Below, one piece after another: positions 29,338-44,237 of a stretch of 64,000 nucleotides of DNA. The notes beneath the pieces are model-generated. The model was not told the origin of the DNA. It did no database searches and was given only the letters and a program-made list of their open reading frames with translations. The DNA comes from Fusobacterium ulcerans (GTDB lineage: Bacteria > Fusobacteriota > Fusobacteriia > Fusobacteriales > Fusobacteriaceae), in NCBI RefSeq assembly GCF_003019675.1, contig NZ_CP028105.1, positions 822,282-886,281 on the forward strand. The letters are read 5' to 3'. Within the stretch, counting starts at the first letter, position 1; each line of letters begins with the position of its first letter. A program made the translations under genes and the position numbers.

Positions 29338-29366
29338 TTGACTTTTTTAATGAAGTATAGTATTCT
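29338..29366 (+). promoter_or_regulatory. Promoter of fimbrial unit 1
   Basis: TTGACT and TATTCT are separated by 17 bases, about 40 bases ahead of the first c-di-GMP aptamer. Confidence 0.7.
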
Positions 29367-29410
29367 TTAATTGAACATAGTCGCTAAAAAAACGATTCAA
29401 ACATTTTTTA

Positions 29411-29525
29411 TGGCAAAGTAATGGAAACATTACGACGCAAAGCTATAGGGCCTGTAAAGTGGCAGCCAGTTGCAATTCTAAAAATACAGAGCTACTCTGT
29501 CTTTTTGTGATTGCACTTTTTTTAT
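29411..29525 (+). ncRNA. Cyclic-di-GMP-I (GEMM) riboswitch 1 with terminator
   Basis: The aptamer (29411-29475) has a GAAA-capped P2 (GTAATG-GAAA-CATTAC), the invariant GACGCAAAGC linker, the GGGCCTGTAA region and GGCAGCCAGTTGC, the class I GEMM pattern. GCAA at 29413 pairs with TTGC at 29470 to close P1. The same TTGCAAT also pairs with ATTGCA at 29510-29515, followed by a long T-run. An inner ACAGAG/CTCTGT hairpin completes the intrinsic terminator. Ligand-stabilised P1 should block the terminator, so an ON switch is predicted. Confidence 0.9.
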
Positions 29526-29569
29526 CTAAATTACTAATTTAGTTATTTATATATTTTGGAGGAAAATTT

Positions 29570-30106
29570 ATGAAAAAAATATTAATTTTTTTAGGAATAT
29601 TTACATTTTCTATCCTTGCATTTGGTGTGAATGATAAGGACGAAAAAGAAGTAATAGTTACTGCTGAATTTATGGCCCCTATTAGTGTTAATGTAATTCG
29701 ACATGCCGATTTTGGAACTGTTATAGCACAAAACTATAGTTCTAAAAATAGACCTTCAACAAGTTCTGGGCATCACGGAGAAATAAAAATATCTGGTGAT
29801 GGAGATATAAAAATACAATGGGCTGATATAACGCAAGGAGAACCACAAGATGTGAAAAATACTCGCAATCTTAAGGTGGTTTTAACTAATGAAAACAATC
29901 CAGCTCAACAAATAAATTCAGAATTCATGTTAGTGGAGAATGAAGAGGACTTTAAAAACATTGAAAATTTAAAATTAACAGAAAGTTCTCCTGCAACTCT
30001 TTTTGTTACTGGAACTTTAACTGATATTTCATCTAATACTCCTTCTGGAGTTTATAAAGGTTCTATTGTCTTCAGAGTTGAATATACTGATGATGCTAGC
30101 AATTAA
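29570..30106 (+). CDS. Fimbrial subunit-like exported protein 1 (DUF4402-like)
   Basis: A 178-residue protein with a cleavable signal peptide (MKKILIFLGIFTFSILAFG). The mature part is beta-rich and ends PSGVYKGSIVFRVEYTDDAS, matching the final-strand pattern of DUF4402/spore-coat-U-like pilins of chaperone-usher systems; relatives in this locus end similarly. It is the first gene behind riboswitch 1, with GGAGGAAAATTT before the ATG. It lacks paired cysteines. A structural or initiator subunit is inferred from the nearby usher and chaperones. Confidence 0.75.
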   Translation: MKKILIFLGIFTFSILAFGVNDKDEKEVIVTAEFMAPISVNVIRHADFGTVIAQNYSSKNRPSTSSGHHGEIKISGDGDIKIQWADITQGEPQDVKNTRNLKVVLTNENNPAQQINSEFMLVENEEDFKNIENLKLTESSPATLFVTGTLTDISSNTPSGVYKGSIVFRVEYTDDASN

Positions 30107-30187
30107 ATATATTTTAAAAAATAAGTTTACAATTTTTTCACAATACTTTTGGTTAAATAATAAAATAATATAAAAATGGTGGTGCTA

Positions 30188-32302
30188 ATGAAAAAACTAA
30201 TTACAATTTTCTTTGTATTCTTAACCTCTTTTGCTTTTGGGAAAGACTCTTTGACTATAAAGATACCTCTTAATCTTACAGATATGTATCTGTATAAAAA
30301 TTTAGAAACTGGTAAATATGAGGGTGTTTATGGTGAGTTATTTGAAAAAATCAATGCTGAAAAACTAGATTCTAAATATGATCTGGATTACAAACTGGAA
30401 AGTGAAGACCCTGAAATCATGATAAGGGTAGTTGACTCTCATCAAAATGAACATTACAATTACATTCCTACATCTATTACATACAGAGTTGCAATTCTAG
30501 TAAAAAGCAACAGCAGTATTAGAAAAGTAAGTGATCTTAATGGATTAAAAATCGCATTTATTCCTAACTCTCGTGGTTTGGCAGAATTTGAAGAAAGATT
30601 TTCAAATGTAGCATTTGAAAAAGTTACTGCTCCAAATGAAGATAAAGGATTGGAATATTTGGAAACTGGAGAAGCTGACGCTTTTGTTGTTGTAGACTGG
30701 GCTGAAAGCAATTCTTTTGAAAGTCATATAAGAATGATAGAAACGCTTCAATACAGAGAACAGATAGCTGTAAGAGAAGATAAAACTGAAGTATATAATG
30801 CTGTAAAAAATTATATAACTTCTCTTCCACCTTCTAATTTTACAGATATTATAAAAAGAAACAGAATAAATTACTATACATATCTTTTGAAAGATACTCC
30901 TAATCAAGAAATTGTAAAAAATAAATTTAAAGAAATAAAAGTACAGCTTCCTGATACAAAATATCTGCTTCCTCTTTTCTATGAAAAAGGCGATGGATAT
31001 AAAGGACTTCTTCCTGATATATTAAAAGATTTAGAAACTATCATTGGAGTTCCTTTTAAAATAACTAAAACTGATGGTGATATAAATGCGTATATCATAA
31101 AAAATCAGAGAAAAATGAATGATTATATATTCAGCACTCCATATTATTCAAGTGACATAGGTATAGCAAATAAAAAACTTGATTCATATAGAGCAAGTAT
31201 AAGTGATTTAGATAATAAAAAAGTATTAGTAGTTGAAAATAGTTATTTTTCTGAATATCTTCCTCATGTAGCTAAAGATGTCATCATTGTTCCTGTAAAA
31301 TCTGTTCAAGAGGGACTTAAAAAATTAGCCAGTGGAAATGGAGATTATTTTGTTGGATTTTCAAGTGTTATCAGAGGAGCTATAACTAATGAGTTTTTAG
31401 ATGATGAAGTAAAAATAGCCGGAACTATAAATGAAAATATGGCTATCAGCCTTGGAGTAAAAAAAGGTGATGAAGAATTAAGTCAGCTTGTAAACACTGT
31501 AATGAAAAGTTTTGCTGTAGATAAAACTCTTACTGACCCTGAAGCAAACAAGAATATTCTTATAGAAAAGAACTACAAACTAATGATGAAAATAGCTATT
31601 CCAACAATAATATTTATCATTATTTTGATAATTGTTCTTATCAAATCTGAAAAGAATAGAAAGAGAGCAGAGGTATTAAGTAATGCTCTGGTAGAAACAT
31701 TGGAAATGATTAATCAGTTAGATCAAGAAGAAGCTGGAGATCACGCTAAAAGATTATCTCTCTATTCTGAACTTCTTGCTGATAAATCTGGTGTGGATAA
31801 AAAACTTGTATCTGAGATCAAAAAGTTTGCTATTCTTCATGACTTAGGTAAAGTTATTGTCCCTAATGAAATACTTAACAAACCAGGAAAATTGACTCCT
31901 GAAGAATTTAATAAAATAAAAGAGCATGCTATTGTAGGACACAAACTTGCTGAAAAGTTAGGACTTGGAAAAGCTGCTGAAAATCTTGTTAAATTCCACC
32001 ATGAAAAATGGAATGGATTAGGTTATCCAATGGGATTAAAAGAAAAAGAAATTCCAATTGAAGGAAGAATTGTAGCTTTAGCAGATACTTACGATACATT
32101 GAGACAAGATAAAGCTTATAGACCTGGTTTCTCACATGAACAAGCTGTACAGATCATAGTTGAAGAAAGTGGTATCAGTTTTGATCCTGAATTAGTAAGT
32201 ATTTTCTTGGCAAACAGCAATCTATTTAAAAAGATTTATGAAGAAAATACAAAGGCTATATATCTTGCTGATGAAATCTATTCAGCTATAAAAAACAAAT
32301 AA
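30188..32302 (+). CDS. Membrane sensor with tandem solute-binding domains and HD-GYP phosphodiesterase
   Basis: A predicted c-di-GMP phosphodiesterase of 704 residues. After a signal peptide come two tandem family-3 solute-binding (PBPb-like) periplasmic domains (about 25-230 and 240-450). One transmembrane helix (about 462-484) leads to a cytoplasmic HD-GYP domain with AILHDLGKVI, EHAIVGHKLAE and HHEKWNGLGYPMG, all the catalytic metal ligands. The layout resembles the sensor half of EvgS joined to an output enzyme. The start is the ATG 5 bases after GGTGGTGC. Lying in riboswitch-1 unit, it would close a feedback loop on c-di-GMP. Confidence 0.9.
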   Translation: MKKLITIFFVFLTSFAFGKDSLTIKIPLNLTDMYLYKNLETGKYEGVYGELFEKINAEKLDSKYDLDYKLESEDPEIMIRVVDSHQNEHYNYIPTSITYRVAILVKSNSSIRKVSDLNGLKIAFIPNSRGLAEFEERFSNVAFEKVTAPNEDKGLEYLETGEADAFVVVDWAESNSFESHIRMIETLQYREQIAVREDKTEVYNAVKNYITSLPPSNFTDIIKRNRINYYTYLLKDTPNQEIVKNKFKEIKVQLPDTKYLLPLFYEKGDGYKGLLPDILKDLETIIGVPFKITKTDGDINAYIIKNQRKMNDYIFSTPYYSSDIGIANKKLDSYRASISDLDNKKVLVVENSYFSEYLPHVAKDVIIVPVKSVQEGLKKLASGNGDYFVGFSSVIRGAITNEFLDDEVKIAGTINENMAISLGVKKGDEELSQLVNTVMKSFAVDKTLTDPEANKNILIEKNYKLMMKIAIPTIIFIIILIIVLIKSEKNRKRAEVLSNALVETLEMINQLDQEEAGDHAKRLSLYSELLADKSGVDKKLVSEIKKFAILHDLGKVIVPNEILNKPGKLTPEEFNKIKEHAIVGHKLAEKLGLGKAAENLVKFHHEKWNGLGYPMGLKEKEIPIEGRIVALADTYDTLRQDKAYRPGFSHEQAVQIIVEESGISFDPELVSIFLANSNLFKKIYEENTKAIYLADEIYSAIKNK

Positions 32303-32324
32303 AATACTGCAAGAGGTGAATTTT

Positions 32325-33755
32325 TTGAGAAAATATTTATTATTATTGATATTTAATTTTTCTTTGATCTTTAGCTTTAGCAGTACTACCAATGATGTAG
32401 AAAATATTTTTGCTGATGAATATGGATATCAAAACGAAAAAACTAGTGAGATTCCTGAAACTTTAAATATCCTTCAAGGAATGAGGGTTTCAATTATTGA
32501 TCCTGCTATGATAAAGGATAACTACTCTAAAAGAGCTATCTCTTTAATATATGATACTCTTTTCACTTTTGATAAAAATGGAGATGTAAAACCTCATCTA
32601 GTTAAAAACTATAAATGGCTCAACGAAAGAGAGCTCCTTATAGAATTAAAAAGTGGTATTAAATTTCATGACAAAAGTATTCTAACTGCCAAAGACGTTA
32701 AAGATTCATTAGAATATCTAAGAAAAAATGGAACATTAAAAAACTTTTATTCAGAAATCACAGATATAAAAGTTTTGAATAACAAGGAACTGGTAATAAA
32801 AATTGCTGAAAAAGACAGTTTGTTTTTAGCATCATTAAGTTATGAAATCAGTTCAATAGCCAAAAGAACTGGAAAGTATACAGTTGGTACTGGTCCATTC
32901 TTTGCAAAAAGCTTCAATGGAAAAACTTTAAAATTAGAAAACTTCTCAGATTATTTTGATGGGGCTTCTAATATAAAAAAAGTAAATATTGGAGAAGAAG
33001 TTAATGAAACGCAAAGACTTATTGCTCTATTCAATGAAAAAGCAAACATTGCCTTGGATGTAACAGAGAAAGCTTTTAATAGTGCAAAAGAATATGGAAT
33101 AATTGATGAAGATATCTCTGTTAAAAAAAGTGGAGAAACAGAAACTACTGCACTTATGTTTGGAAAGCAGAAAAATTACTCTATTGAAAGCAGAAGAGCT
33201 ATAGAGAGTGCTATCCAAAGAACAGCAGATTCTTTCTTCCCAAGCACAATGTTTACTCCAAGACTTTCTAAAGTAGACACTGACTACAGTACTTCAAAAG
33301 CTAAAGATAATATAAACAAAGCAGGGTTAAAAAATAGAGAAGTTAATATTATGGTTCTTAATACAAACACTAACATGGAACAGGCTGAAAAAATAAAAGC
33401 TTCTCTTGAAAGCACTGGAATGAAAGTAAATATTCTTCCTCATCAGGCAGATTCATATTACATTAAATTCCAGAATAAAGATTTTGATCTTGCTATATTT
33501 GATGTAACATTTAATAGAAATTATACTGTATTTAATCTGGGAAAAGTTCTTCTTTACGATATAGGAGATATGGAAATGTACAATGCTTTACAGCCTTTCC
33601 TTAAAATCATAAAAGAAGAAAAAGATAAGGAGAAAAGGGATCAGGTATTCGATAAAATAGTTCAGCTTATTTATAAAGAACTTCCATATATCCCTATTTC
33701 TCATGGCAGAACTCTCGTAGTGGGAGCCGAAAAATATAAATATATAGAAAGATAA
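32325..33755 (+). CDS. Family 5 extracellular solute-binding protein (peptide/nickel type)
   Basis: About 476 residues with a signal peptide and an SBP_bac_5 fold: an ISLIYDTLFTFDKNG...PHLVKNYKW segment near the start, then SGIKFHDKSILTAKDV, and GTGPFFAKSF in the middle. No ABC permease or ATPase genes are nearby, so it probably works as a binding/sensing partner, perhaps presenting a ligand to the HD-GYP sensor encoded just upstream. The start is best placed at TTG 32325, because GAGGTG lies 6 bases before it. An in-frame GTG at 32316 overlaps that site. Confidence 0.8.
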   Translation: MRKYLLLLIFNFSLIFSFSSTTNDVENIFADEYGYQNEKTSEIPETLNILQGMRVSIIDPAMIKDNYSKRAISLIYDTLFTFDKNGDVKPHLVKNYKWLNERELLIELKSGIKFHDKSILTAKDVKDSLEYLRKNGTLKNFYSEITDIKVLNNKELVIKIAEKDSLFLASLSYEISSIAKRTGKYTVGTGPFFAKSFNGKTLKLENFSDYFDGASNIKKVNIGEEVNETQRLIALFNEKANIALDVTEKAFNSAKEYGIIDEDISVKKSGETETTALMFGKQKNYSIESRRAIESAIQRTADSFFPSTMFTPRLSKVDTDYSTSKAKDNINKAGLKNREVNIMVLNTNTNMEQAEKIKASLESTGMKVNILPHQADSYYIKFQNKDFDLAIFDVTFNRNYTVFNLGKVLLYDIGDMEMYNALQPFLKIIKEEKDKEKRDQVFDKIVQLIYKELPYIPISHGRTLVVGAEKYKYIER

Positions 33756-33804
33756 GAGGGAGGGGATTAAAATATATAAGAGACTAAATTTTATAATAGG
33801 ACTT

Positions 33805-34647
33805 ATGTTTGTTGTATTTTCTTTTTCTTATTCTAGCAGCAATCTTAAAGATGTTTCAGCGAGGGGATTATTTTTAAATGGCGACGTTATTAAAGTTTCA
33901 GGTTCAAGTTCAGTAGGATTTGAGATAAATGAAATAACAATAAAAAGAAATGGTGGTGGGGGTCACAAGAATGACTATTTTACTATTTCTGGAGTTGAAG
34001 ATTCTAATCAAGCTAAAAATAAATTTATTCAAGTAACTGACTTAAAAATCACAAGAGTAGATGTAGGAAGCCAAACTGCTAATGGTGTAGCTTTTTCTGA
34101 TGGGGATACTATTAAATTTGCTTTAAGTGGCACACTTATATTTAACTGGCCTATATACAACACTAACCCTGATTTCAATATAATTATTGGATATAGAGCC
34201 AAAAATGATGAAGTTAATAAAAATCCTATTCCTTTGAATCTTAAAAGTGATATTGAAGTTGTAACACCACTTAATCTTAAAGTTGCTGAAAATATGGATC
34301 TTGGAAAGGGAATTGCTGGCAATGCCCTTGATACTTCAAGAGGTGATGGGCACCCTGCAAAAATAGAGGCTACTGGTGAGCGAGGAAAAAATGTTAAATT
34401 TAAGATTATAAATCCTAATGATATAAAAATTATAAATTCTAAGGGAAATTCTCTAAATGTAAATGTATGGTTTGAAGAAAATAAACAAGTTGAATTAGTA
34501 AGAAATTTACGTGAGAAGTCTACAGGCAACTCTCTTTATGAAGGAAAGGTGTCTGATATAAAAATCCATGGAAGATGCCAATCAGAAACAACTAGCCGTG
34601 GAAAATATAGGGGAACATTTATAGTAAGAGCGGAGTATGATGATTAA
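33805..34647 (+). CDS. Probable two-domain fimbrial tip adhesin
   Basis: From the first ATG it is 280 residues, but this leaves a signal peptide without its basic start. In frame upstream, IKIYKRLNFIIGL supplies one, behind GAGGGAGGGG, with only ATT (33766) or ATA (33772) as start candidates. The C-terminal half (about 150-280) resembles the pilin-like subunits of this locus, ending GKYRGTFIVRAEYDD. The N-terminal half (about 12-145) is a different beta-rich domain. A receptor domain plus pilin domain is the tip-adhesin layout. Its end overlaps the usher gene. Confidence 0.6.
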   Translation: MFVVFSFSYSSSNLKDVSARGLFLNGDVIKVSGSSSVGFEINEITIKRNGGGGHKNDYFTISGVEDSNQAKNKFIQVTDLKITRVDVGSQTANGVAFSDGDTIKFALSGTLIFNWPIYNTNPDFNIIIGYRAKNDEVNKNPIPLNLKSDIEVVTPLNLKVAENMDLGKGIAGNALDTSRGDGHPAKIEATGERGKNVKFKIINPNDIKIINSKGNSLNVNVWFEENKQVELVRNLREKSTGNSLYEGKVSDIKIHGRCQSETTSRGKYRGTFIVRAEYDD

Positions 34648-37264
34648 AAAAAGAAGGGTTCTGCCTTTCTTAATATTTTTAATTCTTATTTCTAAATCTC
34701 TTTATTCTGTAGAAAATTATGAAAACTTTGAAGATTCATACATACAGATAAATGCAAAAAAAATCAAAGATGACTTTTTTCTGGTAAAATATGATTATGA
34801 TAATGAAGAAGTCTACATAGGAATGAATGCTCTATTTTATTTTATGGAGCTCTATGGACTTGAAGTAAATACTGAAAATAAATCTATATCTGGAAAACTC
34901 GAGGGGAAAAATATAAACGTTTCTTTTTCAGATGATGAAGCTTATGTCTTAGATGGTGAACTATATGTCAATTCGAAAGCTTTAGAAAAGAAGATGGACT
35001 TTACTTCAATAAAATATGATTTTTCATCTTTAAGGTTGAATTTAGAACCAAATTTTACACTGCCTTATGAAGAAAGAGAAAAAGGAAAAGTAGAAAGATT
35101 AAGACTGGATAGCAGAAAAGAAGAAGAAGAAGAAAGAAAAATTGACATTGAAGCACCTAGAAAGCTTATAACTCCTGGACTAGTAAAATTAGATTATTCT
35201 CAATCTGATATTAAAGGACCTGAGAATCGTCTTTCATACGAATATGCTTCACAGCTCCTGTATGGAGAGCTATATTTATCTGGTGAAATAAGACCTGAAT
35301 CTGAGCTTACTTATGGTAATCTTACTTATTCAGATATTGTTGGAGATAATGACCTTGTCTTTGGTAATTTCTCCCTTATAACACCTGGATTTCTTAGCAT
35401 AGACGGTAATATTCTGGGAGTAAGCTTTAACAACGAAGAAACATATGTAACAAAAGATGGTGCTATCACTGTTATTAAAGGGGAAGCTTTTGATGCTGAT
35501 ATCATTGAGCTATATAGAAATGGTATGCTTTTAAGTTATATTTCTCCTCAAACAAAAGATTTTGAATTTAGAATAGATGATGGTATACTTAGTTCTAACT
35601 ACACATTAAAAATTTACTATAAAAATGGTGGAGTGGAAGAAAGAATAGTTTACTCTCTTTCAGACTCTGAACTATTAAAAAAGGGAAGATACAGATTCTC
35701 AGCACAAAGTGGTAAAAATGCTGATAATGGCGACCCTCAAAGTATTGTAAGAACTTTCTATGGACTAGCTAATAATCTTACTATTGGGGTAGGAGGAAAT
35801 GATCTGATAAGTACTTCTGGAAGAAAATACAGATTTTTAGAAAACACTTTCTTGTGGAGTACAGGACTCAACAGCTTTCCTACTTTGATTAACTATAAGA
35901 ACTACTACGAAATAGAAAAACAGGAAAACAACTACAATCTGTCAGTGGAGCAAAAACTATTTTCATACAATTTAAGATTTACTGAAAATAAGTATTCTCC
36001 ATATGTCTATGAAGACACAAATTTAAAGAAATATAATTCATTATCTCTTGGAAAAAGTTTTGATAGAAACTCTTTTGAGTTTGGACTTAATAGATATATT
36101 TATTACGATACTGATATAGAAAGCAAAAATATATATGGTACTTGGTACTCTTCAATGCTTAATCCTGTTTCCTTCTCTCTGAGAATGGAAAAAGAATTAA
36201 CAAAAGGGAGTGAAGGTATATCTTTTTATCCATCCTTTGCTTATTCAGGATTTCAAAGTCTGAATATGATGCTGGATGGTGAAATAAGCAAAAAGAAAAC
36301 TGATGATGAATATAAGCAGGAATACACATTTAAGGTAAATAAAAGAAACCTGGAATTGATAAAAGATACTCTGTATGCTGATTTTGGAATAGAAGCAAAA
36401 TATTCCAGTGAAACAGAAAAATTCAGATACGGTATTAGTTTCTCTATTGAACTGGATGACTTTATCTATCTTGAAGTTCCTACTGATATCACTATAGATG
36501 AGGATAATAATCGTGAAACAACTACAAGCCTTCATGCCAGCAAGATTATTGATCTCAGCAACCCTCTTAGAAAAATCAAAAGTAATGTTTCTATTACTGG
36601 TGCTTGGATACATGGTAAAGTATTCCTTGATAAGAATGGAAATGGTATATTTGATGAGGGAGATATTCCTATCCCTGAAGCTGGAGTTATGGTAAACAAC
36701 AGAACATTCATAGCTGATGAAGATGGAAATTATGTGGCTGAAGGTGTAGCTACTAACGAGGTTATAGATCTTACAATCAATAGAAAAACTATTGACCCTA
36801 TGATGAAAAATTCTAAGGGTGCTCTAAAGATTAAAACAAGAAAATCTTCTGGACTTAAAGTTGATGTACCTATTGAAGTTGTTTCAATGGTTACAGGAAA
36901 TATCTGGAATACATCTGAATTTACAGAAAGACAATTTATACAAGCTGTATCTATGACTACTATAGTCCTTGAAAAAGATGGGCAAGTGCAATATGAAGTC
37001 GATCCTGAATTTGATGGAATGTTCTTCTTTGAAGATATCCCACCAGGACAATATAAAATGAAATTTATATATCTTGGTCAGGAAAATTTCGGCTTTACCA
37101 TCCCTGAATTAGATGTTGATGTTACTCTATCAGATACAGAAACTGGAGAGTATTTTGAAGGTTATGATACTCAGTTAATGAGAACTGCTGTTGAAGAACC
37201 AACTCAAACAACACCAACTGATACGGATGAAGATGACATAGATGACATCTTAAATAATTACTAA
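34637..37264 (+). CDS. Fimbrial usher-like outer-membrane protein
   Basis: An 875-residue protein with a signal peptide (MIKKRRVLPFLIFLILISKS). It has an N-terminal periplasmic domain, a large beta-barrel region with alternating aromatic strands, and a plug-like segment about 285-345 (DADIIELYRNGMLLSYI) typical of ushers. C-terminal Ig-like domains include GKVFLDKNGNGIFDEGDIPI, a calcium-loop-like repeat common in archaic and TcfC-type ushers. The usher threads chaperone-subunit complexes across the outer membrane. Two adjacent ATGs overlap the adhesin stop; the second (34640) has better spacing from GGAG. Confidence 0.8.
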   Translation: MMIKKRRVLPFLIFLILISKSLYSVENYENFEDSYIQINAKKIKDDFFLVKYDYDNEEVYIGMNALFYFMELYGLEVNTENKSISGKLEGKNINVSFSDDEAYVLDGELYVNSKALEKKMDFTSIKYDFSSLRLNLEPNFTLPYEEREKGKVERLRLDSRKEEEEERKIDIEAPRKLITPGLVKLDYSQSDIKGPENRLSYEYASQLLYGELYLSGEIRPESELTYGNLTYSDIVGDNDLVFGNFSLITPGFLSIDGNILGVSFNNEETYVTKDGAITVIKGEAFDADIIELYRNGMLLSYISPQTKDFEFRIDDGILSSNYTLKIYYKNGGVEERIVYSLSDSELLKKGRYRFSAQSGKNADNGDPQSIVRTFYGLANNLTIGVGGNDLISTSGRKYRFLENTFLWSTGLNSFPTLINYKNYYEIEKQENNYNLSVEQKLFSYNLRFTENKYSPYVYEDTNLKKYNSLSLGKSFDRNSFEFGLNRYIYYDTDIESKNIYGTWYSSMLNPVSFSLRMEKELTKGSEGISFYPSFAYSGFQSLNMMLDGEISKKKTDDEYKQEYTFKVNKRNLELIKDTLYADFGIEAKYSSETEKFRYGISFSIELDDFIYLEVPTDITIDEDNNRETTTSLHASKIIDLSNPLRKIKSNVSITGAWIHGKVFLDKNGNGIFDEGDIPIPEAGVMVNNRTFIADEDGNYVAEGVATNEVIDLTINRKTIDPMMKNSKGALKIKTRKSSGLKVDVPIEVVSMVTGNIWNTSEFTERQFIQAVSMTTIVLEKDGQVQYEVDPEFDGMFFFEDIPPGQYKMKFIYLGQENFGFTIPELDVDVTLSDTETGEYFEGYDTQLMRTAVEEPTQTTPTDTDEDDIDDILNNY

Positions 37265-37287
37265 AAAATCAAAGGAGAAGGGTTATT

Positions 37288-38199
37288 TTGAAAAAATCGA
37301 AGCTATTATTGATAATTATGATTTTATGTTTTAGTATATTCGAACTTTCATACTCTGATGCTAAACGAGTAGAGAAGATTGAAAATAAGCAAATAAAAAA
37401 TAATATCGTCTATTTCAAAAATGAATCTGTCCCTTTTACTGGTGAATTCAGAGGTCCTGGTATCAATGAAGAATATAAATCAGGTATAAAAGACGGGTTT
37501 TTTAAAGGCGTTATTTTAGATGGAGGAAAAAACTTCATCTATGAAGGAAGATATGTAGAAGGAATCAAACATGGACAATGGGTTATCAAATACCCCACTG
37601 GAAGCAACAGAGCTATCCTCAGATATAATTATGATAAGCCTCATGGGCAATGGGCATATTTCTATGAAACAAATAAAATAGAGAGTTATGAAAATTTTGA
37701 AGATGGTATACTTTCAGGAAGAGTTGTAAGTTATGATCCAAAAGGAAATGTAAAAACACAAGTAACATACAGAAGTGGACTATTGGATGGAGAAGCTGTC
37801 TTCTTCCATAGTCCAAACGTATTAGATACTACAACTGTTTTCTCTTATGGAAAACTTAATGGTTCAATAAAAATGTTTTCAACTGACAATATTCCTCTAA
37901 TAGAGGGGACATATAAAAATAACAGAAGAGAAAATATCTGGAAATTTTTCTACAAAACTGGCGATATCAAAACTACAGTTCCATACAAGAATGGTTTAAA
38001 AGATGGAAAAGTCATCATCTATGATAAAGGTGGAGGAGTAGTACTTGTATCTTTATTTAAAAATGGAAATGAAGTTGATGATAAGGGAAATATAATTGAA
38101 AAAAGCCAGCCATTTAAAGATGCTATTGTAGAGAGATTTAAGAAATTCAACAGAAATCTAAAATTTGAAAAATATGATAAATTATTATCAGAACTTTAA
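37288..38199 (+). CDS. Exported MORN/YwqK-repeat protein in the fimbrial operon
   Basis: 303 residues: a signal peptide, then successive MORN-variant repeats of the G-x-W-x-x-Y type (YEGRYVEGIKHGQWVIKYPT, KPHGQWAYFYETN, LLDGEAVFFHS, RRENIWKFFYKTG, LKDGKVIIYDKGG). Such repeats form a flat beta-sheet used for protein contact. Their role in a chaperone-usher operon is unknown; a periplasmic scaffold or an assembly accessory are possibilities. The start is TTG at 37288, behind AAAGGAGAAGGG. It lies 23 bases after the usher and 15 before a chaperone gene. Confidence 0.8.
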   Translation: MKKSKLLLIIMILCFSIFELSYSDAKRVEKIENKQIKNNIVYFKNESVPFTGEFRGPGINEEYKSGIKDGFFKGVILDGGKNFIYEGRYVEGIKHGQWVIKYPTGSNRAILRYNYDKPHGQWAYFYETNKIESYENFEDGILSGRVVSYDPKGNVKTQVTYRSGLLDGEAVFFHSPNVLDTTTVFSYGKLNGSIKMFSTDNIPLIEGTYKNNRRENIWKFFYKTGDIKTTVPYKNGLKDGKVIIYDKGGGVVLVSLFKNGNEVDDKGNIIEKSQPFKDAIVERFKKFNRNLKFEKYDKLLSEL

Positions 38200-38214
38200 T
38201 TTAGGGGTGATCTA

Positions 38215-38955
38215 GTGAAAAAAATATTTGCATTTTTAATGACTTTCATCATTGGAACTGCTGCTTATGCTCTTAACTTTTCTGTAGCTCCCACAGGTTT
38301 CAAAGTTGAACTGCAAAAACCTGTAACTCAGGAAGTGTATATCATCAATAATACTCCAGCTCCACTGAGAATAGAAACTTATATGGAAGCTGCTGAGTCT
38401 TTTGAAGATTTTAACTTAAATAATAATATCACTGTATTTCCAAAGATGATATCTATTAAACCAGGTTCTAAGCAGACGATAAGATTCAGAGTAAAACCTG
38501 ATGCTAATATGACAGATGGAGAATATAGAAGTTTGCTGATATTCAAAGAAGTTCCCCAAGAAATAAAGACAGTAATTGTCAATGATAAAAATAATAAGGG
38601 ACTTTCTACTGAACTTACTTTTATCACAGAGGTAGCTATAGGAGTATCTGGAATAAAAGGAAAACCTGTAATTGATGGTACAGCACAAAATATAAAAGTA
38701 TCTTATGCTGAACAAATTCTTTCTCTTAAATGTGATACAACTTCTAAAGGCAACACAGCTATGAGAATAGATTATGTATTGGAAAATGAAAGTGGAAAAG
38801 TTATCTCTGAAGGAAGACTTGGAACAAGTGCAAGAACTGGAGAAAAGAAACTTTCAACTAGTATAGAAGCTCCTGAATTAAAAGGAAAAAAAGTAAAACT
38901 TATCCTGAAAGATCAAAACAACAAAACAATTTATAGTGGAACAAATTCTTTATAA
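38215..38955 (+). CDS. PapD-like periplasmic fimbrial chaperone 1
   Basis: A 246-residue exported protein with two Ig-like domains. Typical segments are LNFSVAPTGFKVELQKPVTQ after the signal peptide, the domain-1 strand MISIKPGSKQTIRFRVKP, YRSLLIFKEVP, and a final domain ending KGKKVKLILKDQNN. The first-domain P-x-K/R-strand pattern is that of chaperone-usher chaperones, which donate a strand to subunits. It starts with GTG behind AGGGGTGATCTA. It is the last gene of unit 1 and is followed by a strong terminator. Confidence 0.85.
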   Translation: MKKIFAFLMTFIIGTAAYALNFSVAPTGFKVELQKPVTQEVYIINNTPAPLRIETYMEAAESFEDFNLNNNITVFPKMISIKPGSKQTIRFRVKPDANMTDGEYRSLLIFKEVPQEIKTVIVNDKNNKGLSTELTFITEVAIGVSGIKGKPVIDGTAQNIKVSYAEQILSLKCDTTSKGNTAMRIDYVLENESGKVISEGRLGTSARTGEKKLSTSIEAPELKGKKVKLILKDQNNKTIYSGTNSL

Positions 38956-38961
38956 ATTTAA

Positions 38962-38998
38962 AATAAGGGAAGGAGAAATTAATCTCCTTCCCTTTATT
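38962..38998 (+). terminator. Strong terminator ending fimbrial unit 1
   Basis: AATAAGGGAAGGAGA pairs with TCTCCTTCCCTTTATT in a stem of about 15 bp with a 6-base loop. Ts follow within the 3' arm. The next 100 bases are A+T-rich and lead to promoter 2. Confidence 0.85.
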
Positions 38999-39105
38999 TC
39001 TACTGTTCCGTTTTATATTTGATACCTTTTCAATATACTTTTTATATCATGAACAAAAAATATCTTCTATTCGTATTTTTTTCTTGATAAAATAAAAATA
39101 TTTCA

Positions 39106-39134
39106 TTGACACACATTAATTAATGATGTATAAT
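39106..39134 (+). promoter_or_regulatory. Promoter of fimbrial unit 2
   Basis: A perfect consensus TTGACA and TATAAT with a 17-base spacer, about 30 bases before the aptamer. Confidence 0.9.
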
Positions 39135-39164
39135 TATATTACATAAAACTAGTATATTATATCC

Positions 39165-39290
39165 TTGGCAAAATAACAGAAATGTTATGACGCAAAGCTA
39201 TAGGGCCTGTAAAATGGCAGCCAGTTGCAATTATTATTTGAGAACATGATTATCAGGATCATGTATTTGAGTAATAGTTGCATTTTTAAT
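39165..39290 (+). ncRNA. Cyclic-di-GMP-I (GEMM) riboswitch 2 with terminator
   Basis: Same aptamer as riboswitch 1: P2 ATAACA-GAAA-TGTTAT, GACGCAAAGC, GGGCCTGTAA and GGCAGCCAGTTGC. GCAA (39168) pairs with TTGC (39225). The terminator 5' arm TGCAATTATTA (39226-39236) pairs with TAATAGTTGCA (39272-39282), then TTTTTA. An ACATGAT/ATCATGT hairpin sits inside. P1 and the terminator share bases, again predicting an ON switch. Confidence 0.92.
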
Positions 39291-39339
39291 ATACAGGGGT
39301 TATATAAAAAATATTAAGATATTTTTAGGAGGGATAGAT

Positions 39340-39915
39340 ATGAAAAAATTATTATTATTAGCAGGATTATTGGTTATAGCTGGTTCAGCTTTTACTGCTG
39401 ACATTCAAACAGAAGCAAGTGGAGAAGTTGAAATTTTTGCTCAAGTTCTTACTGATTTAAATATTGAGACTGAGCCATTAAATTTTGGTATTCTTGGGTT
39501 AAATGATAATAAAACTGTAAATCCAAGTCAGACTGAAGCTGGTAAATTTATTATTAAAGGAGCATCAAATACAAATATTTCTTTGACAATAGAGGATACT
39601 ATTGATGCAGAGAATAAATTTAAAAATGGTCAAATTACAGCTAGATTATTGAGAGAAGGTGGGTCAAATGGTGCTGCTTATAATGATCGTTTAGTTCCTA
39701 TTATAAAAATATATGATAATGGTAAACAATTAAGTGATAGTGATCTTTCTTTCAATATAGCTGCTACTGGAAATTTACATGAAGTAAAATCAAAAGAATT
39801 TAGGGTTGCAGGAGATATTGAGACTAGACCTGAACAAAATACTGGTAGTTATAAAGGTGCTATAAAAGTTACTGCTAAATATGATTCTTGGCCTGCTGCC
39901 ACTCCTGCTAAATAA
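39340..39915 (+). CDS. Fimbrial subunit-like exported protein 2 (DUF4402-like pilin)
   Basis: A 191-residue protein with signal peptide MKKLLLLAGLLVIAGSAFTA, then a pilin-like beta domain: VLTDLNIETEPLNFGILGL is the conserved DUF4402 opening, AGKFIIKGASNTNISLTIED the middle, and GSYKGAIKVTAKYDSW the end. The AGGAGGGATAGATATG start context and the first codons are identical to those of the third pilin gene, marking a duplication. As the first gene behind a riboswitch, with a terminator after it, it is likely a highly expressed shaft subunit. Confidence 0.8.
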   Translation: MKKLLLLAGLLVIAGSAFTADIQTEASGEVEIFAQVLTDLNIETEPLNFGILGLNDNKTVNPSQTEAGKFIIKGASNTNISLTIEDTIDAENKFKNGQITARLLREGGSNGAAYNDRLVPIIKIYDNGKQLSDSDLSFNIAATGNLHEVKSKEFRVAGDIETRPEQNTGSYKGAIKVTAKYDSWPAATPAK

Positions 39916-39949
39916 CTAGTTCTATAAATCAATAATAAATTTTTACTGG

Positions 39950-39980
39950 AACAGCAGCATTTATTTGCTGCTGTTTTTTA
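39950..39980 (+). terminator. Intercistronic terminator between pilin 2 and chaperone 2
   Basis: AACAGCAGCA/TGCTGCTGTT 10-bp stem, 6-base loop, six Ts. No promoter is obvious in the short gap to the chaperone, so this probably lowers chaperone expression relative to pilin rather than ending the unit. Confidence 0.85.
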
Positions 39981-40004
39981 ACTAAATTCTTTGGAGGAAC
40001 AGCT

Positions 40005-40754
40005 ATGAAAAAACTTTCTTTTTTTACTCTTTTGGTAATACTTTCTGTCATTTCTTATTCTCTTAATTTTTCTGTTATGCCTACTGGTTTTGTAGTAGAT
40101 TTGGATAAGGTTTCTACCCAAGAAGTCTACATTACTAATAATACTTCTGCACCACTTAGATTAGAAGCATATTTTCAAGGTGATCCTAATTTTGGAGAAA
40201 ATTTTAACCTTAATTCTAATTCTGTAATATTTCCCAAAATAATTGCTATGAAACCTGGTGCTAAACAAACTATAAGATTTAGAACAAAGCCTGATGCTAA
40301 TATGAAAGATGGTGAATATAAGAGTTATCTTACTTTCAAAGAAATTCCTCAAGAAATAAAAACTATTCTTAGTGAAGATGGTAGTAATAAAACTGCAATG
40401 TCAACTAATTTGCAAATGATTACTGAAATTAGTATAAGTGTATTTGGCCAAAGAGGAAAGCAAATATCAAAAGGAACTTTAAATAATTTGAAACTAAATT
40501 ATGTTGGAAACGCAATAACTGCTACTGCTGTAACTTCATCTGTAGGAAATGCTTCTATAAAATTCTACTATAATTTAAAAGTTCTAAATTCTGATGTTGA
40601 ATTAGAAGGAATGCTTGGAATGTCTGCCAGAGAAGGAAAAAAAGATATCAAAGTTTCAATAGACCCTACAATAGATCTAAAGGGTAAAAAAATAAAATTT
40701 ACAGTGATAGATCAAGATGGAGAAGTATATTATGATAAAATTCATAATTTATAA
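40005..40754 (+). CDS. PapD-like periplasmic fimbrial chaperone 2
   Basis: 249 residues, closely similar to chaperone 1 along its length: LNFSVMPTGFVVDLDKVSTQ, IIAMKPGAKQTIRFRTKP, YKSYLTFKEIP, and a C-terminal KGKKIKFTVIDQDG. The signal peptide is MKKLSFFTLLVILSVISYS. GGAGGAACAGCT precedes the ATG. Pairing with the pilin gene upstream suggests it is dedicated to that subunit. Confidence 0.85.
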   Translation: MKKLSFFTLLVILSVISYSLNFSVMPTGFVVDLDKVSTQEVYITNNTSAPLRLEAYFQGDPNFGENFNLNSNSVIFPKIIAMKPGAKQTIRFRTKPDANMKDGEYKSYLTFKEIPQEIKTILSEDGSNKTAMSTNLQMITEISISVFGQRGKQISKGTLNNLKLNYVGNAITATAVTSSVGNASIKFYYNLKVLNSDVELEGMLGMSAREGKKDIKVSIDPTIDLKGKKIKFTVIDQDGEVYYDKIHNL

Positions 40755-40790
40755 TTACAATTAAAAATTTATAAATCCATATTTTATGAA

Positions 40791-40818
40791 GGGTTCTATA
40801 AAGTAGAACTCTTTTTTT
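40791..40818 (+). terminator. Terminator ending fimbrial unit 2
   Basis: GGGTTCTA/TAGAACTC stem (one G-T pair), 5-base loop and seven Ts. Confidence 0.85.
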
Positions 40819-40861
40819 ATTCAAATAATATCTTTGAATCGTAAATTTAAGCTTTTTTATA

Positions 40862-40890
40862 TTGACATACATTATTTGCTGGAGTATAAT
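40862..40890 (+). promoter_or_regulatory. Promoter of fimbrial unit 3
   Basis: TTGACA and TATAAT with a 17-base spacer, ahead of riboswitch 3. Confidence 0.9.
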
Positions 40891-40914
40891 GTATTAAAGA
40901 AGTATATATTATAA

Positions 40915-41033
40915 TTTAGCAAAATAACAGAAATGCTATGACGCAAAGCTATAGGGCCTGTAAGATGGCAGCCAGTTGCAATTATTTTTAAAGAGATCGC
41001 CTGTCCTTTCACTTTAATAATAGTTGCTTTTTT
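40915..41033 (+). ncRNA. Cyclic-di-GMP-I (GEMM) riboswitch 3 with terminator
   Basis: Aptamer core nearly identical to copy 2 (GACGCAAAGCTATAGGGCCT, then GGCAGCCAGTTGC); P2 is ATAACA-GAAA-TGCTAT with one mismatch. GCAA (40919) pairs with TTGC (40976). The terminator forms between GCAATTATT (40978-40986) and AATAATAGTTGC (41016-41027), followed by six Ts. The inner loop differs from copy 2, so only pairing, not loop sequence, is preserved. Confidence 0.9.
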
Positions 41034-41086
41034 ATTATATAAGTTATTGTTATTATAAAATATTTTATATTCTGGGAGGGATAGAT

Positions 41087-41641
41087 ATGAAAAAATTATT
41101 ATTATTAGCTAGTATCTTAACAGTGTCAGGAGTTGCTGTAGCAGCTGAAGATGGAAAATCAGCTTCAGATGACTTAAAAGTTAAAGCTCAAATTATTAAG
41201 CCATTAAAAATCACTACTAAAGAAGTAGATTTTGGAGTAGTAGCAATTGGACAAAGTGCTTCTGCTTCTGATGGAGAAATCTCTATTTCTGGAGAAGCGG
41301 GATCAAATTTTTCAATAGAATTTTCTGATTTAAATAATACTACAAATTCTGGTGAATCTTTCACAAGTACAGGGATAGTATTAGTAGAACCAAGTTCTAA
41401 AGGTACATTACTGGCAAATTTAGTGATTAGTGATGAGTATGGTACAGGACAATCAGGTAATGCTGGTGGACCTAGTAAATTTGAAGATTTCAAAACAACT
41501 GCTATTCCAACAAGTGGGGAATTAAAATATCCTATTTATGGTTATCTTCCTACTGTTCCTGAGGGTACTGCTTCAGGTTTTTATGAAGGAGCTATTAAAG
41601 TAACAGCTACATATACTTCATTTCCAGTAGAAGTAAAGTAG
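41087..41641 (+). CDS. Fimbrial subunit-like exported protein 3 (DUF4402-like pilin)
   Basis: 184 residues from the ATG behind GGGAGGGATAGAT. The frame extends upstream into the riboswitch terminator, so the longer version is not real. The signal peptide is MKKLLLLASILTVSGVAVAA. The mature part has IIKPLKITTKEVDFGVVAIG, ISISGEAGSNFSIEFSDLNN and the end SGFYEGAIKVTATYTSFP, a clear DUF4402 match. It is a diverged paralogue of pilin 2 under its own riboswitch. Confidence 0.82.
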   Translation: MKKLLLLASILTVSGVAVAAEDGKSASDDLKVKAQIIKPLKITTKEVDFGVVAIGQSASASDGEISISGEAGSNFSIEFSDLNNTTNSGESFTSTGIVLVEPSSKGTLLANLVISDEYGTGQSGNAGGPSKFEDFKTTAIPTSGELKYPIYGYLPTVPEGTASGFYEGAIKVTATYTSFPVEVK

Positions 41642-41657
41642 AATAAAATATTAAAAT

Positions 41658-41686
41658 AAAAACAGTAGCAAATTGCTACTGTTTTT
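41658..41686 (+). terminator. Intercistronic terminator between pilin 3 and chaperone 3
   Basis: AAAACAGTAGCAA/TTGCTACTGTTTT stem with almost no loop spacer beyond the central AATT, then Ts. Same position as the terminator inside unit 2. Confidence 0.8.
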
Positions 41687-41710
41687 CAACTTGTTTAATT
41701 GGAGGATTTT

Positions 41711-42445
41711 ATGAAAAAATTACTTTTTATCATATTATTATTAAATATCTCAATATTATCATATTCCCTTAATTTCTCAGTAGCTCCTACTGGTTTTTCT
41801 GTAGGATTGAATAAAACTTCTACACATGAAATTACAATTTTAAATAATACAACTGAACCACTAAGGTTAAATGCAGTTTTTCACTCTGACCCTACATTTG
41901 GAGAAAAATATAACCTTGATTCTAATCTTACTATTTTTCCCAAAACAATATCTTTAAAACCTGCTGCTCAACAAGTCATAAGATTTAGAGTAAAGCCAGA
42001 TTCTAAGCTTGAAAATGGCGAATATAAAAGTCTGCTCACATTTACAGAAATTCCTGCTGAAATAAAAACTACTGCTAAAAATAATGAAACAGCTTCAAAT
42101 TTGAAATTTATAACAGAAATCAATATTAGTGTCTATGGATATAAAGGAAATCTTACTCATAAAGGAACTTTATCTGATGTTAAATTAGCTTATAATGGAG
42201 TTTCTGCTATTATTTCTGCTTCTTCTTTCTCTGAAGGAAATACATCTTTAAAGTTTTCATATAGTCTGAAAGTTCAAGGTTCTAATGTTGAAGCCTCTGG
42301 TCTATTTGGAATATCAGCTAGAGAAGGAAACAAAGAATTAAATTTATCTACTCAATTAGCTCCTAACTTAAAAGGTAAAAAAGCTAAATTAGTAATTACT
42401 GATCAAAATGGAAAAGTTTATTACGATAAAGTACACACTTTATAG
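41711..42445 (+). CDS. PapD-like periplasmic fimbrial chaperone 3
   Basis: 244 residues from the ATG behind GGAGGATTTT. A TTG 12 bases upstream lies before that site and is rejected. Features match the other two chaperones: LNFSVAPTGFSVGLNKTSTH, ISLKPAAQQVIRFRVKP, YKSLLTFTEIP and KGKKAKLVITDQNGKVYYDK. Three chaperones with one usher is unusual; each probably serves its neighbouring subunit. Confidence 0.85.
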   Translation: MKKLLFIILLLNISILSYSLNFSVAPTGFSVGLNKTSTHEITILNNTTEPLRLNAVFHSDPTFGEKYNLDSNLTIFPKTISLKPAAQQVIRFRVKPDSKLENGEYKSLLTFTEIPAEIKTTAKNNETASNLKFITEINISVYGYKGNLTHKGTLSDVKLAYNGVSAIISASSFSEGNTSLKFSYSLKVQGSNVEASGLFGISAREGNKELNLSTQLAPNLKGKKAKLVITDQNGKVYYDKVHTL

Positions 42446-42468
42446 CAAAAAATTAAATAGAAATTTCT

Positions 42469-42500
42469 GAGGCTGCTCTTGAAGAGCAGTCTCTTTTTTT
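42469..42500 (+). terminator. Terminator ending fimbrial unit 3
   Basis: GAGgCTGCTCTTGAAGAGCAGtCTC forms a stem with one mismatch, followed by seven Ts. Confidence 0.85.
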
Positions 42501-42659
42501 AAATTTTTTTTTATCTTTAAATCGCATTTTTCGGTTTGACAATATCTGATTTTGGAGATATACTTGTATTAATATATAAACAGTTAAGTATAAAATCTTT
42601 AATTCAAATTTTTATTCTAATAATGAAATAAAATTTAACTTAGAATATAAGGAGTAGTT

Positions 42660-44237
42660 ATGTACAATGCAACTTTAAAAATTTTGTACCCTAATAACTC
42701 TCAACTTGACACAGCGATGAATAACTTAAAAATGAGAGAAAATTTTAGTTATGATTTAATCAAATATCATAATTTAAAAGATGAGGATATTGAAAAAGCT
42801 AATATTATTCTAGTTCTTCATTCTGATGGTTATGAAGCAGAAAAATTAAAAAAATTTATGAACCCTAATGCAATATTAATCTATATCCTGGAGCATAGTA
42901 TTCTCACTGACAAAGATGCTCTTTTTAATTTTGTAGATGATATCTGGTTTTCTCCACTATCTGAAATTGAAATACTATTTAGAATAGAAAAAATAATTGA
43001 TGGAGTAAAGCTGAAAAAAGATAAAAATCTAGCTGAAAATTATCTTAATACACTAATAAATAGTATTCCTGATATGGTATGGTTTAAAGATAATGCTGGT
43101 ATTCATCTAAAAGTTAATGACGCTTTTTGTAGTATCATAGGAAAATCAAGAGAAAAAATAGAGGGACAAGATCACTTCACTATCTGGGATATTCCAAGAC
43201 CTGAGTATGAAAAAGGTGGATATATTTGTATGGAAAGCGAAGAAGATGTTCGTAAAGCTGGAAAAACTATTTTACTGTATGAAAAGGTTAAAAATAGAAA
43301 TGGATTCCGCCGTCTAAATACATATAAATCTCCCTTGTATGATGAAGATGGAGAAATGATGGGGACTGTAGGAATAGCTCATGATATTACAGATCTTGAA
43401 AATATAGATATAGAGTTGCAGCTTATTATTAATACTATGCAGTTTGCTATACTGATTTGCAATGAACATGGAGAAATAATTAATGTAAATAACAAATTTG
43501 TTGAATATTTTAAAATTGAAAAAGATGTTATTGTCAAGCATAACTACAGAAACTGGTTAAAAGAAAACTTAACTTTAGTCACTATAGTAGATGAAAACGG
43601 ATGTTTTGAATGTAATAATCAAAAGAATTCAAAACTCCAGGTATTAAATTGTCATGAAAAAATAATTTTAGATACATTCCAAAAAGAAATAGGAAAATTG
43701 TGTGTTTTTCGTGATATAACTAAAGAAAGAGAATTAGAAAGTGAGCTCATTCATACTTCTAATACTGATTATCTCACTGGATTATACAATCGTCGTTACT
43801 TATATGAATATATGAAGCACTTTACAAAAGTCAATCAAATCATTGTTTTATATATGGATCTTGATAATTTCAAATCTGTAAATGACATATATGGCCATCA
43901 AATGGGAGATGAGATATTAGTACTCACATCATCTATTCTTAAAAAAATTTTCCCTGGAGATTTAATAGCTCGTATTGGAGGAGATGAATTTCTCATAGTT
44001 TCATTTGGAGAATGGAGTATAGAGGAAATAATGGATAAAGCTTCTCTCTTAATAAAAGACTTGAAAGAAGCTTACATAAATAAAACTAATTTCATTCATT
44101 TAAGCTCAAGTATAGGTATAACAGTTGCCTATGATAAAGTAATTGATTTAGATGAACTTATCAAACAAAGTGATATAGCTTTGTATGAAGCAAAAAAAAG
44201 AGGAAAGTCGCAAATCTATTTTTTACCATTAGAGTAA
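42660..44237 (+). CDS. PAS-GGDEF diguanylate cyclase
   Basis: A 525-residue cytoplasmic protein. Residues 1-120 resemble a degenerate receiver-like fold. A PAS domain follows (about 130-250, NSIPDMVWFKDNAG), then a second PAS (about 255-360) and a GGDEF domain with NTDYLTGLYNRRYL and the intact active site RIGGDEF near residue 440. It should make c-di-GMP from GTP. The inhibitory I-site (RxxD ahead of GGDEF) reads FPGD, so product inhibition may be lost. There is no transmembrane segment. It lies just after the fimbrial units. Confidence 0.9.
   Translation: MYNATLKILYPNNSQLDTAMNNLKMRENFSYDLIKYHNLKDEDIEKANIILVLHSDGYEAEKLKKFMNPNAILIYILEHSILTDKDALFNFVDDIWFSPLSEIEILFRIEKIIDGVKLKKDKNLAENYLNTLINSIPDMVWFKDNAGIHLKVNDAFCSIIGKSREKIEGQDHFTIWDIPRPEYEKGGYICMESEEDVRKAGKTILLYEKVKNRNGFRRLNTYKSPLYDEDGEMMGTVGIAHDITDLENIDIELQLIINTMQFAILICNEHGEIINVNNKFVEYFKIEKDVIVKHNYRNWLKENLTLVTIVDENGCFECNNQKNSKLQVLNCHEKIILDTFQKEIGKLCVFRDITKERELESELIHTSNTDYLTGLYNRRYLYEYMKHFTKVNQIIVLYMDLDNFKSVNDIYGHQMGDEILVLTSSILKKIFPGDLIARIGGDEFLIVSFGEWSIEEIMDKASLLIKDLKEAYINKTNFIHLSSSIGITVAYDKVIDLDELIKQSDIALYEAKKRGKSQIYFLPLE

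Follow-up and report, generated by a model that had tools for sequence, protein, structure and literature searches.

We found that a gene cluster of Fusobacterium ulcerans probably specifies a chaperone-usher fimbria controlled by cyclic di-GMP (c-di-GMP), in which riboswitches would act as ON switches, an HD-GYP phosphodiesterase would provide feedback and the fimbria would be the sole riboswitch-controlled output. The cluster occupies 29.3 to 44.2 kb, on the + strand, of a stretch of 64,000 nucleotides analysed here (the window), which corresponds to positions 822282-886281 of contig NZ_CP028105.1 in a single-contig genome of 3.54 Mb (genome code G000). This reading draws on the gene content, the folds of the usher and tip protein, the riboswitch census, the conserved synteny and the overlap of terminators with aptamers, all of which were found directly.

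Components of the fimbrial cluster

Profile and covariance searches bore out the parts list of an initial annotation of the window: three c-di-GMP-I aptamers, four pilin-like proteins, three PapD-like proteins, and one protein each with HD-GYP, SBP_bac_5, MORN_2 and GGDEF matches (Table 1). The annotation had named an 875-amino-acid protein as the usher, and failure to model as an usher barrel had been set beforehand as a possible refutation. In its AlphaFold model (predicted local distance difference test score, pLDDT, 81) the top 18 Foldseek matches in the PDB were all FimD or PapC, with E down to 9e-23. With VIA, the top 15 matches were FimD or PapC, and the best had Z 18.0 and a root-mean-square deviation (rmsd) of 9.9 over 523 aligned residues. 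The best PDB match of the usher family profile was PapC (E=4e-4). No Pfam usher model, including PF00577, matched the protein at E up to 1, and it received no NCBIfam name. On the predicted structure it is a FimD/PapC-type outer-membrane barrel usher with N- and C-terminal domains on the periplasmic side, recognisable only by family profile and fold.

All four pilin-like proteins match one family profile, which was made from the pilins of other genomes with the window sequences left out. The initial annotation had proposed profile searches against usher, PapD and DUF4402 models, and with Pfam these succeeded in part: PapD_N was found in three proteins and DUF4402 in PIL2, but the other three pilin-like proteins missed the DUF4402 cut-off and the usher had no Pfam match.

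The fourth pilin-like protein, TIP, resembles a two-domain tip adhesin. In its model (280 amino acids, pLDDT 85) the C-terminal half matches CsuA/B (Z 8.7, 112 residues, rmsd 2.8), so that this domain is predicted to have a CsuA/B-CfaB-like pilin fold. Over the whole length the matches were CsuE, CfaE and CfaB-CfaB fusions; nearly all leading matches were fimbrial subunits, though their Z of 8-9 is modest. The tip-family profile had no sequence match in the PDB. The alignment of TIP shows a variable N-terminal and a conserved C-terminal half, as two-domain tip adhesins do. The ATG at 33805 falls within the signal peptide, and a conserved non-AUG start at about 33766 is probable. Within 33745-33805, GGAGGGG is followed by in-frame ATT AAA ATA, conserved in four species, which suggests a rare AUU or AUA start of TIP.

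Between sister species the pilins and TIP have diverged much further than the usher, the HD-GYP protein or the flanks. Identity is 88-91% for the usher and 83-88% for the HD-GYP protein, versus 41-65% for PIL1, 37-65% for PIL2, 34-48% for PIL3 and 49-52% for TIP. The predicted exposed parts of the fimbria thus appear to diverge fastest, as expected of surface subunits. A second usher locus is present in the F. ulcerans genome (L084, G000:C1:1504000-1523900). It has no riboswitch, its usher is 26-27% identical, and it contains small open reading frames (ORFs) and one chaperone gene.

The HD-GYP protein retains its catalytic motifs, HDLGK at 555 and HHEKWNGLGYP at 608. The family-5 solute-binding protein (SBP-5) encoded next to it has no lipobox, and the cluster has no gene for an ATP-binding cassette (ABC) permease; its nearest NCBIfam models, Opp5A/NikA, scored below cut-off. 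From their domain content, the HD-GYP sensor and SBP-5 may respond to a periplasmic ligand. The MORN2 gene adjoins the usher gene throughout the block conserved among genomes. The active site of the local cyclase is canonical (RIGGDEF, DLDNFKSVNDIYGHQMGD), with Asp at the guanine-selectivity position.

These genes form four units. Unit 1 runs from riboswitch 1 through PIL1, HD-GYP, SBP-5, TIP, usher, MORN2 and chaperone 1 to a terminator; a gap of 69 bases follows PIL1, after which genes overlap or lie at most about 25 bases apart. Position 29338, at which the cluster had been taken to begin, is the -35 box upstream of riboswitch 1. Unit 2 consists of a perfect promoter, riboswitch 2, PIL2, an attenuator-like terminator and chaperone 2. 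Unit 3 repeats this order with riboswitch 3, PIL3 and chaperone 3, and ends in a terminator. Unit 4 is the GGDEF gene alone, with its own promoter-like site and without a riboswitch. The hairpins between pilin and chaperone genes in units 2 and 3 could cause more pilin than chaperone to be made.

Table 1. Predicted features of the cluster, in window coordinates
Feature	Position	Strand	Evidence
Promoter-like site, riboswitch 1 unit (TTGACT-17-TATTCT)	29338..29366	+	consensus scan, 9/12
c-di-GMP-I riboswitch aptamer 1	29402..29477	+	59.8 bits; G20/A47/C92 equivalents present
Terminator, 5' arm overlapping aptamer 1 3' strand; putative ON-type expression platform	29468..29523	+
PIL1, pilin-like protein	29570..30106	+	pilin family profile 1e-43
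Predicted HD-GYP c-di-GMP phosphodiesterase: signal peptide, periplasmic SBP_bac_3-type sensor region, transmembrane helix	30176..32302	+	HD_5 E=8e-32
SBP-5, orphan family-5 solute-binding protein	32316..33755	+	SBP_bac_5 1.5e-28
TIP, two-domain tip-adhesin-like pilin	33766..34647	+	family profile 5e-14
Divergent outer-membrane usher, 875 aa	34637..37264	+	family profile and fold
MORN2-repeat protein with signal peptide	37288..38199	+	MORN_2 2.6e-11
PapD-like chaperone 1	38215..38955	+	PapD_N 28.0 bits, cut-off 23
Terminator closing unit 1	38965..38994	+
Promoter before riboswitch 2 (TTGACA-17-TATAAT), perfect consensus	39106..39134	+	12/12
c-di-GMP-I riboswitch aptamer 2	39157..39232	+	59.1 bits; G20/A47/C92 equivalents present
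Terminator overlapping aptamer 2 3' strand	39226..39287	+	25-bp helix
PIL2, pilin-like protein, DUF4402	39340..39915	+	family profile 7e-40; passes Pfam DUF4402 cut-off
Attenuator-like terminator, pilin 2/chaperone 2 interval	39952..39977	+
PapD-like chaperone 2	40005..40754	+	PapD_N 30.6 bits
Promoter before riboswitch 3, perfect consensus	40862..40890	+	12/12
c-di-GMP-I riboswitch aptamer 3	40908..40983	+	52.2 bits; A at G20 position, A47 and C92 kept
Terminator overlapping aptamer 3 3' strand	40978..41035	+
PIL3, pilin-like protein, start corrected to 41087	41087..41641	+	family profile 2.5e-35
Attenuator-like terminator, pilin 3/chaperone 3 interval	41658..41686	+
PapD-like chaperone 3, start corrected to ~41711	41711..42445	+	PapD_N 25.2 bits
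Terminator closing third fimbrial unit	42469..42493	+
Promoter-like site of cyclase gene, without riboswitch	42536..42564	+	11/12
Predicted soluble PAS-PAS-GGDEF diguanylate cyclase	42660..44237	+	GGDEF 9e-34

Riboswitch leaders and the polarity of control

The three aptamers are predicted c-di-GMP-I riboswitches. They were found with the covariance model of family RF01051, and their scores are well above its curated gathering score of 35 bits. Class-I aptamers contact the ligand through G20, A47 and C92 in Vc2 numbering (PMC4744006), and we transferred this numbering to the fusobacterial aptamers by our own alignment. A natural A at the G20 position occurs in 7 of 47 fusobacterial aptamers (aptamer 3, window 40906; L064:1407 and 14584; L067, L075, L010 and L085); A20 is present both in riboswitch 3 and in its counterpart in genome G025. 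In the whole F. ulcerans genome there are three c-di-GMP-I riboswitches, all in this cluster.

No class-II c-di-GMP riboswitch scored above cut-off in the 61 genomes of the window's family. Class-II-like matches in genomes of genus g3 were not counted, being near-identical repeated copies that scored 31.5 against a cut-off of 53.5 bits. Ten such near-identical sub-threshold sequences per genome were noted in two genomes (listed under G008, G009 and G005), and they probably belong to a dispersed repeat or an insertion element.

In all three leaders of the window, the 5' arm of the terminator starts within the 3' end of the aptamer and takes the cytosine of UUGC, which is the equivalent of C92 in Vc2. 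Since the arm takes a ligand-contacting cytosine, the arrangement is of the ON type. A terminator helix that uses aptamer nucleotides, has at least 8 bp and closes at a U-run was found in 26 of 37 distinct leaders, the window's three included, versus 4.5% when the downstream part was shuffled. A less strict count of pairing between terminator and aptamer gave 35/37 and was dropped, because shuffles equalled it 42% of the time. The sequences suggest that the leaders are ON switches, the ligand preventing termination.

Under the mechanism that we propose, each of the three fimbrial units would begin at a promoter followed by a c-di-GMP-I riboswitch with an intrinsic terminator. When c-di-GMP is high, the aptamer would hold the strand that otherwise builds the terminator, and the resulting read-through would yield pilins, chaperones, tip adhesin and usher, from which an adhesive fibre may be assembled. 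If the polarity is ON, read-through of unit 1 would also raise the HD-GYP protein, which lowers c-di-GMP, so that the unit would contain its own negative feedback. An extracytoplasmic signal may tune this feedback through the periplasmic sensor of the HD-GYP protein, possibly by way of the adjacent SBP-5. In F. ulcerans, many other cyclases and EAL phosphodiesterases would feed the c-di-GMP pool, and among its outputs only the fimbria would be under riboswitches. The locus of F. mortiferum contains almost all of the c-di-GMP system that can be recognised there.

Conservation in Fusobacteriota and competing readings

A synteny comparison had been proposed as a check, and the gene order is kept in three genera. 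The block riboswitch-(pilin)-HD-GYP-SBP-5-TIP-usher-MORN2-chaperone recurs in genera g1, g3 (Cetobacterium) and g5, usually with the riboswitch in front. The usher family was detected at E<=0.001 in 44 of 98 Fusobacteriota genomes, all in the window's family and none in the 37 others, with a few weak partial matches. In the 61 family genomes, 49 of 143 riboswitches have an usher gene at most 12 kb away, versus 3.0 expected and a maximum of 13 in 20,000 simulations; in the window's genus 18 of 21 do so. Of 38 distinct riboswitches, 18 are followed first by a pilin gene (by a pilin profile that included one out-of-frame PIL3 row), 5 by an HD-GYP gene, 5 by a chaperone gene and 10 by another gene.

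Riboswitches and cyclases also occur together. All 36 riboswitch-bearing genomes carry GGDEF, with P 2e-9 if genomes are independent, a value that is only indicative because the genomes are related. Among the 17 genomes without GGDEF none has a riboswitch, and eight of these keep ushers (14 in all). One genome, G018, has no GGDEF, EAL, HD_5 or riboswitch. Its HD-GYP homologue (481 amino acids) stops directly after the transmembrane helix, without an HD domain and with fimbrial genes still adjoining, and the usher gene in this cluster is split over two reading frames.

F. mortiferum (G021), which belongs to the same GTDB genus as F. ulcerans, and its sister genome G020 each have a single GGDEF gene, located in the cluster, and no EAL. 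In each, the cluster contains the two riboswitches of the genome and two of its three HD-GYP genes; the third HD-GYP gene adjoins a different usher gene. Their cluster adds a histidine kinase and receiver-HD-GYP pair and a CHASE-GGDEF cyclase. An HD-GYP homologue of G020 by another usher cluster (L097:9338-11497) still matches HD_5, though its sequence did not show the usual catalytic motifs. No PilZ or MshEN domain was found in 12 genomes of the window's genus, that of F. ulcerans included.

Riboswitches also occur beside genes other than those of ushers. Two genomes have a single GGDEF gene, with two riboswitches adjoining it and no usher (L095, G028:C3:1-15000; L096, G034:C1:58000-72000); the downstream genes include those of a lipoprotein-like protein and a conserved secreted protein, possibly a second minimal c-di-GMP output. 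In G023 a riboswitch outside the usher cluster (L103:7243-7290) precedes a short secreted protein and an ORF of 2233 amino acids, which may be a large surface protein under c-di-GMP control.

Several findings weigh against parts of the proposed mechanism. Folds in which the P2/P3 core of the aptamer was forced to form were only 0.6-2.5 kcal/mol less favourable and could still contain most of the terminator; since the two can coexist, the argument for ON polarity depends on what the terminator shares with the aptamer at the C92 position and P1. Such coexistence is also compatible with OFF switches, which are known among class-I riboswitches elsewhere in bacteria. In that case c-di-GMP would repress the fimbria, and the HD-GYP protein of the operon would lock the ON state by positive feedback. 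We regard this polarity as unlikely, because the terminator arm is built from aptamer nucleotides in most leaders, the C92 equivalent included in those of the window, and because antiterminator pairing was not apparent in the three window leaders. A change of ligand, with some switches reading 3',3'-cyclic GMP-AMP (cGAMP) instead of or besides c-di-GMP, is highly improbable. The A20 of riboswitch 3 and its relatives would fit it, since a G20A mutant of a class-I aptamer can bind cGAMP (PMC7288161). However, A20 is scattered and tied to no single locus, and the Ser that Hypr (cGAMP-making) enzymes have at the selectivity position is absent from all cyclases read.

The initial annotation had proposed a self-contained adhesion switch controlled by c-di-GMP, and its interpretation is partly supported. 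A chaperone-usher fimbria controlled by c-di-GMP is well supported; self-containment is nearly true of F. mortiferum and G020 and wrong for F. ulcerans. A private circuit, in which the local cyclase and HD-GYP protein determine the c-di-GMP level to which the riboswitches respond, shielded from the remainder of the cell, would agree with the sole cyclase gene of the former two genomes and with the finding that the only HD-GYP gene of the F. ulcerans genome lies in the operon. But this genome has 25 GGDEF matches, of which about 14 keep the active-site motifs intact, and 12 EAL matches, two being pieces of one domain, so the local enzymes are not the sole writers and erasers and the cluster is the single output that can be recognised in a large network. 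Moreover, the orthologous cluster of G026 has no local GGDEF gene, and in G020 and G023 this gene is replaced by unrelated membrane cyclases. For F. ulcerans we therefore think insulation quite doubtful. Other c-di-GMP receptors, such as degenerate GGDEF/EAL proteins and transcription factors, may also exist. The SBP-5 gene is kept in three clusters without HD-GYP (L071, L072 and L073); because of this the pairing of the two is not proven, and SBP-5 may serve the fimbria in some other way. Finally, 94 of the 143 family riboswitches have no detected usher gene within 12 kb, in part through contig fragmentation and distant ushers and in part because they have other targets. It is scarcely credible, nevertheless, that chance or a general clustering of surface genes brought these elements together and that fibre assembly is independent of the riboswitches. 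Gene neighbourhoods alone are not proof of regulation, but nothing specific favours chance, and the linkage simulation led us to reject it; the order kept in three genera, the position of riboswitches immediately before pilin, HD-GYP or chaperone genes and their joint absence with GGDEF also argue against it.

Relation to known systems and significance

The aptamer class and ligand-contact positions are common to the fusobacterial aptamers and the Vibrio cholerae Vc1 and Vc2 riboswitches, but Vc1 has no apparent terminator, and V. cholerae has riboswitches at single genes whereas here three switches serve a complete fimbrial locus (PMC4744006). In Clostridioides difficile a c-di-GMP riboswitch at a terminator turns on the adhesive type IV pilus operon, similar to our proposal, with a class II aptamer and type IV pili in place of the class I aptamers, in a putative ON arrangement, and chaperone-usher fibre of Fusobacterium (PMC11477304). 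Like the fimbriae proposed here, the type 3 fimbriae of Klebsiella pneumoniae are chaperone-usher fimbriae that c-di-GMP switches on, and a gene for a dedicated phosphodiesterase adjoins their operon (MrkH/MrkJ; PMC3161979). There the PilZ-type activator MrkH reads and an EAL enzyme erases the signal, whereas in Fusobacterium RNA riboswitches would read it and an HD-GYP enzyme within the operon would erase it. The usher and pilins of the two systems are very distant in sequence.

The archaic Csu and alternative CFA/I fimbriae share with the cluster a two-domain tip and CsuA/B-like pilins, in line with the best folds of TIP (CsuA/B, CsuE, CfaB and CfaE). The fusobacterial usher differs from theirs in scoring below Pfam usher models and in its C-terminal domains, which score weakly as SdrD_B/CarboxypepD-like. 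We know of no MORN2, HD-GYP or SBP-5 gene in a Csu operon, nor, to our knowledge, does the riboswitch-controlled pilus operon of C. difficile contain a phosphodiesterase gene. No prior account of DUF4402, fusobacterial ushers or riboswitch-controlled chaperone-usher fimbriae was found in the open-access literature, most subscription papers lying outside the search.

In conclusion, c-di-GMP networks are hard to study, with dozens of enzymes and many overlapping receptors. The fusobacterial system would be a tractable case: the usual kinds of protein receptor were not found, three identifiable RNAs would do the reading for one output, and F. mortiferum has just one cyclase. F. nucleatum has been reported to have no c-di-GMP domains altogether (PMC5478684). 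We tentatively suggest that in fusobacteria of the F. mortiferum type c-di-GMP might be the private signal of one surface organelle and not a global messenger, with writer, erasers, RNA readers and output forming one locus that is gained or lost as a unit, and that relatives with larger genomes might have wired dozens more enzymes onto this single output. The adhesins studied in F. nucleatum include FadA, RadD and Fap2. With the fimbria described here, gut fusobacteria would have an adhesive fibre of another sort, regulated and hypervariable.

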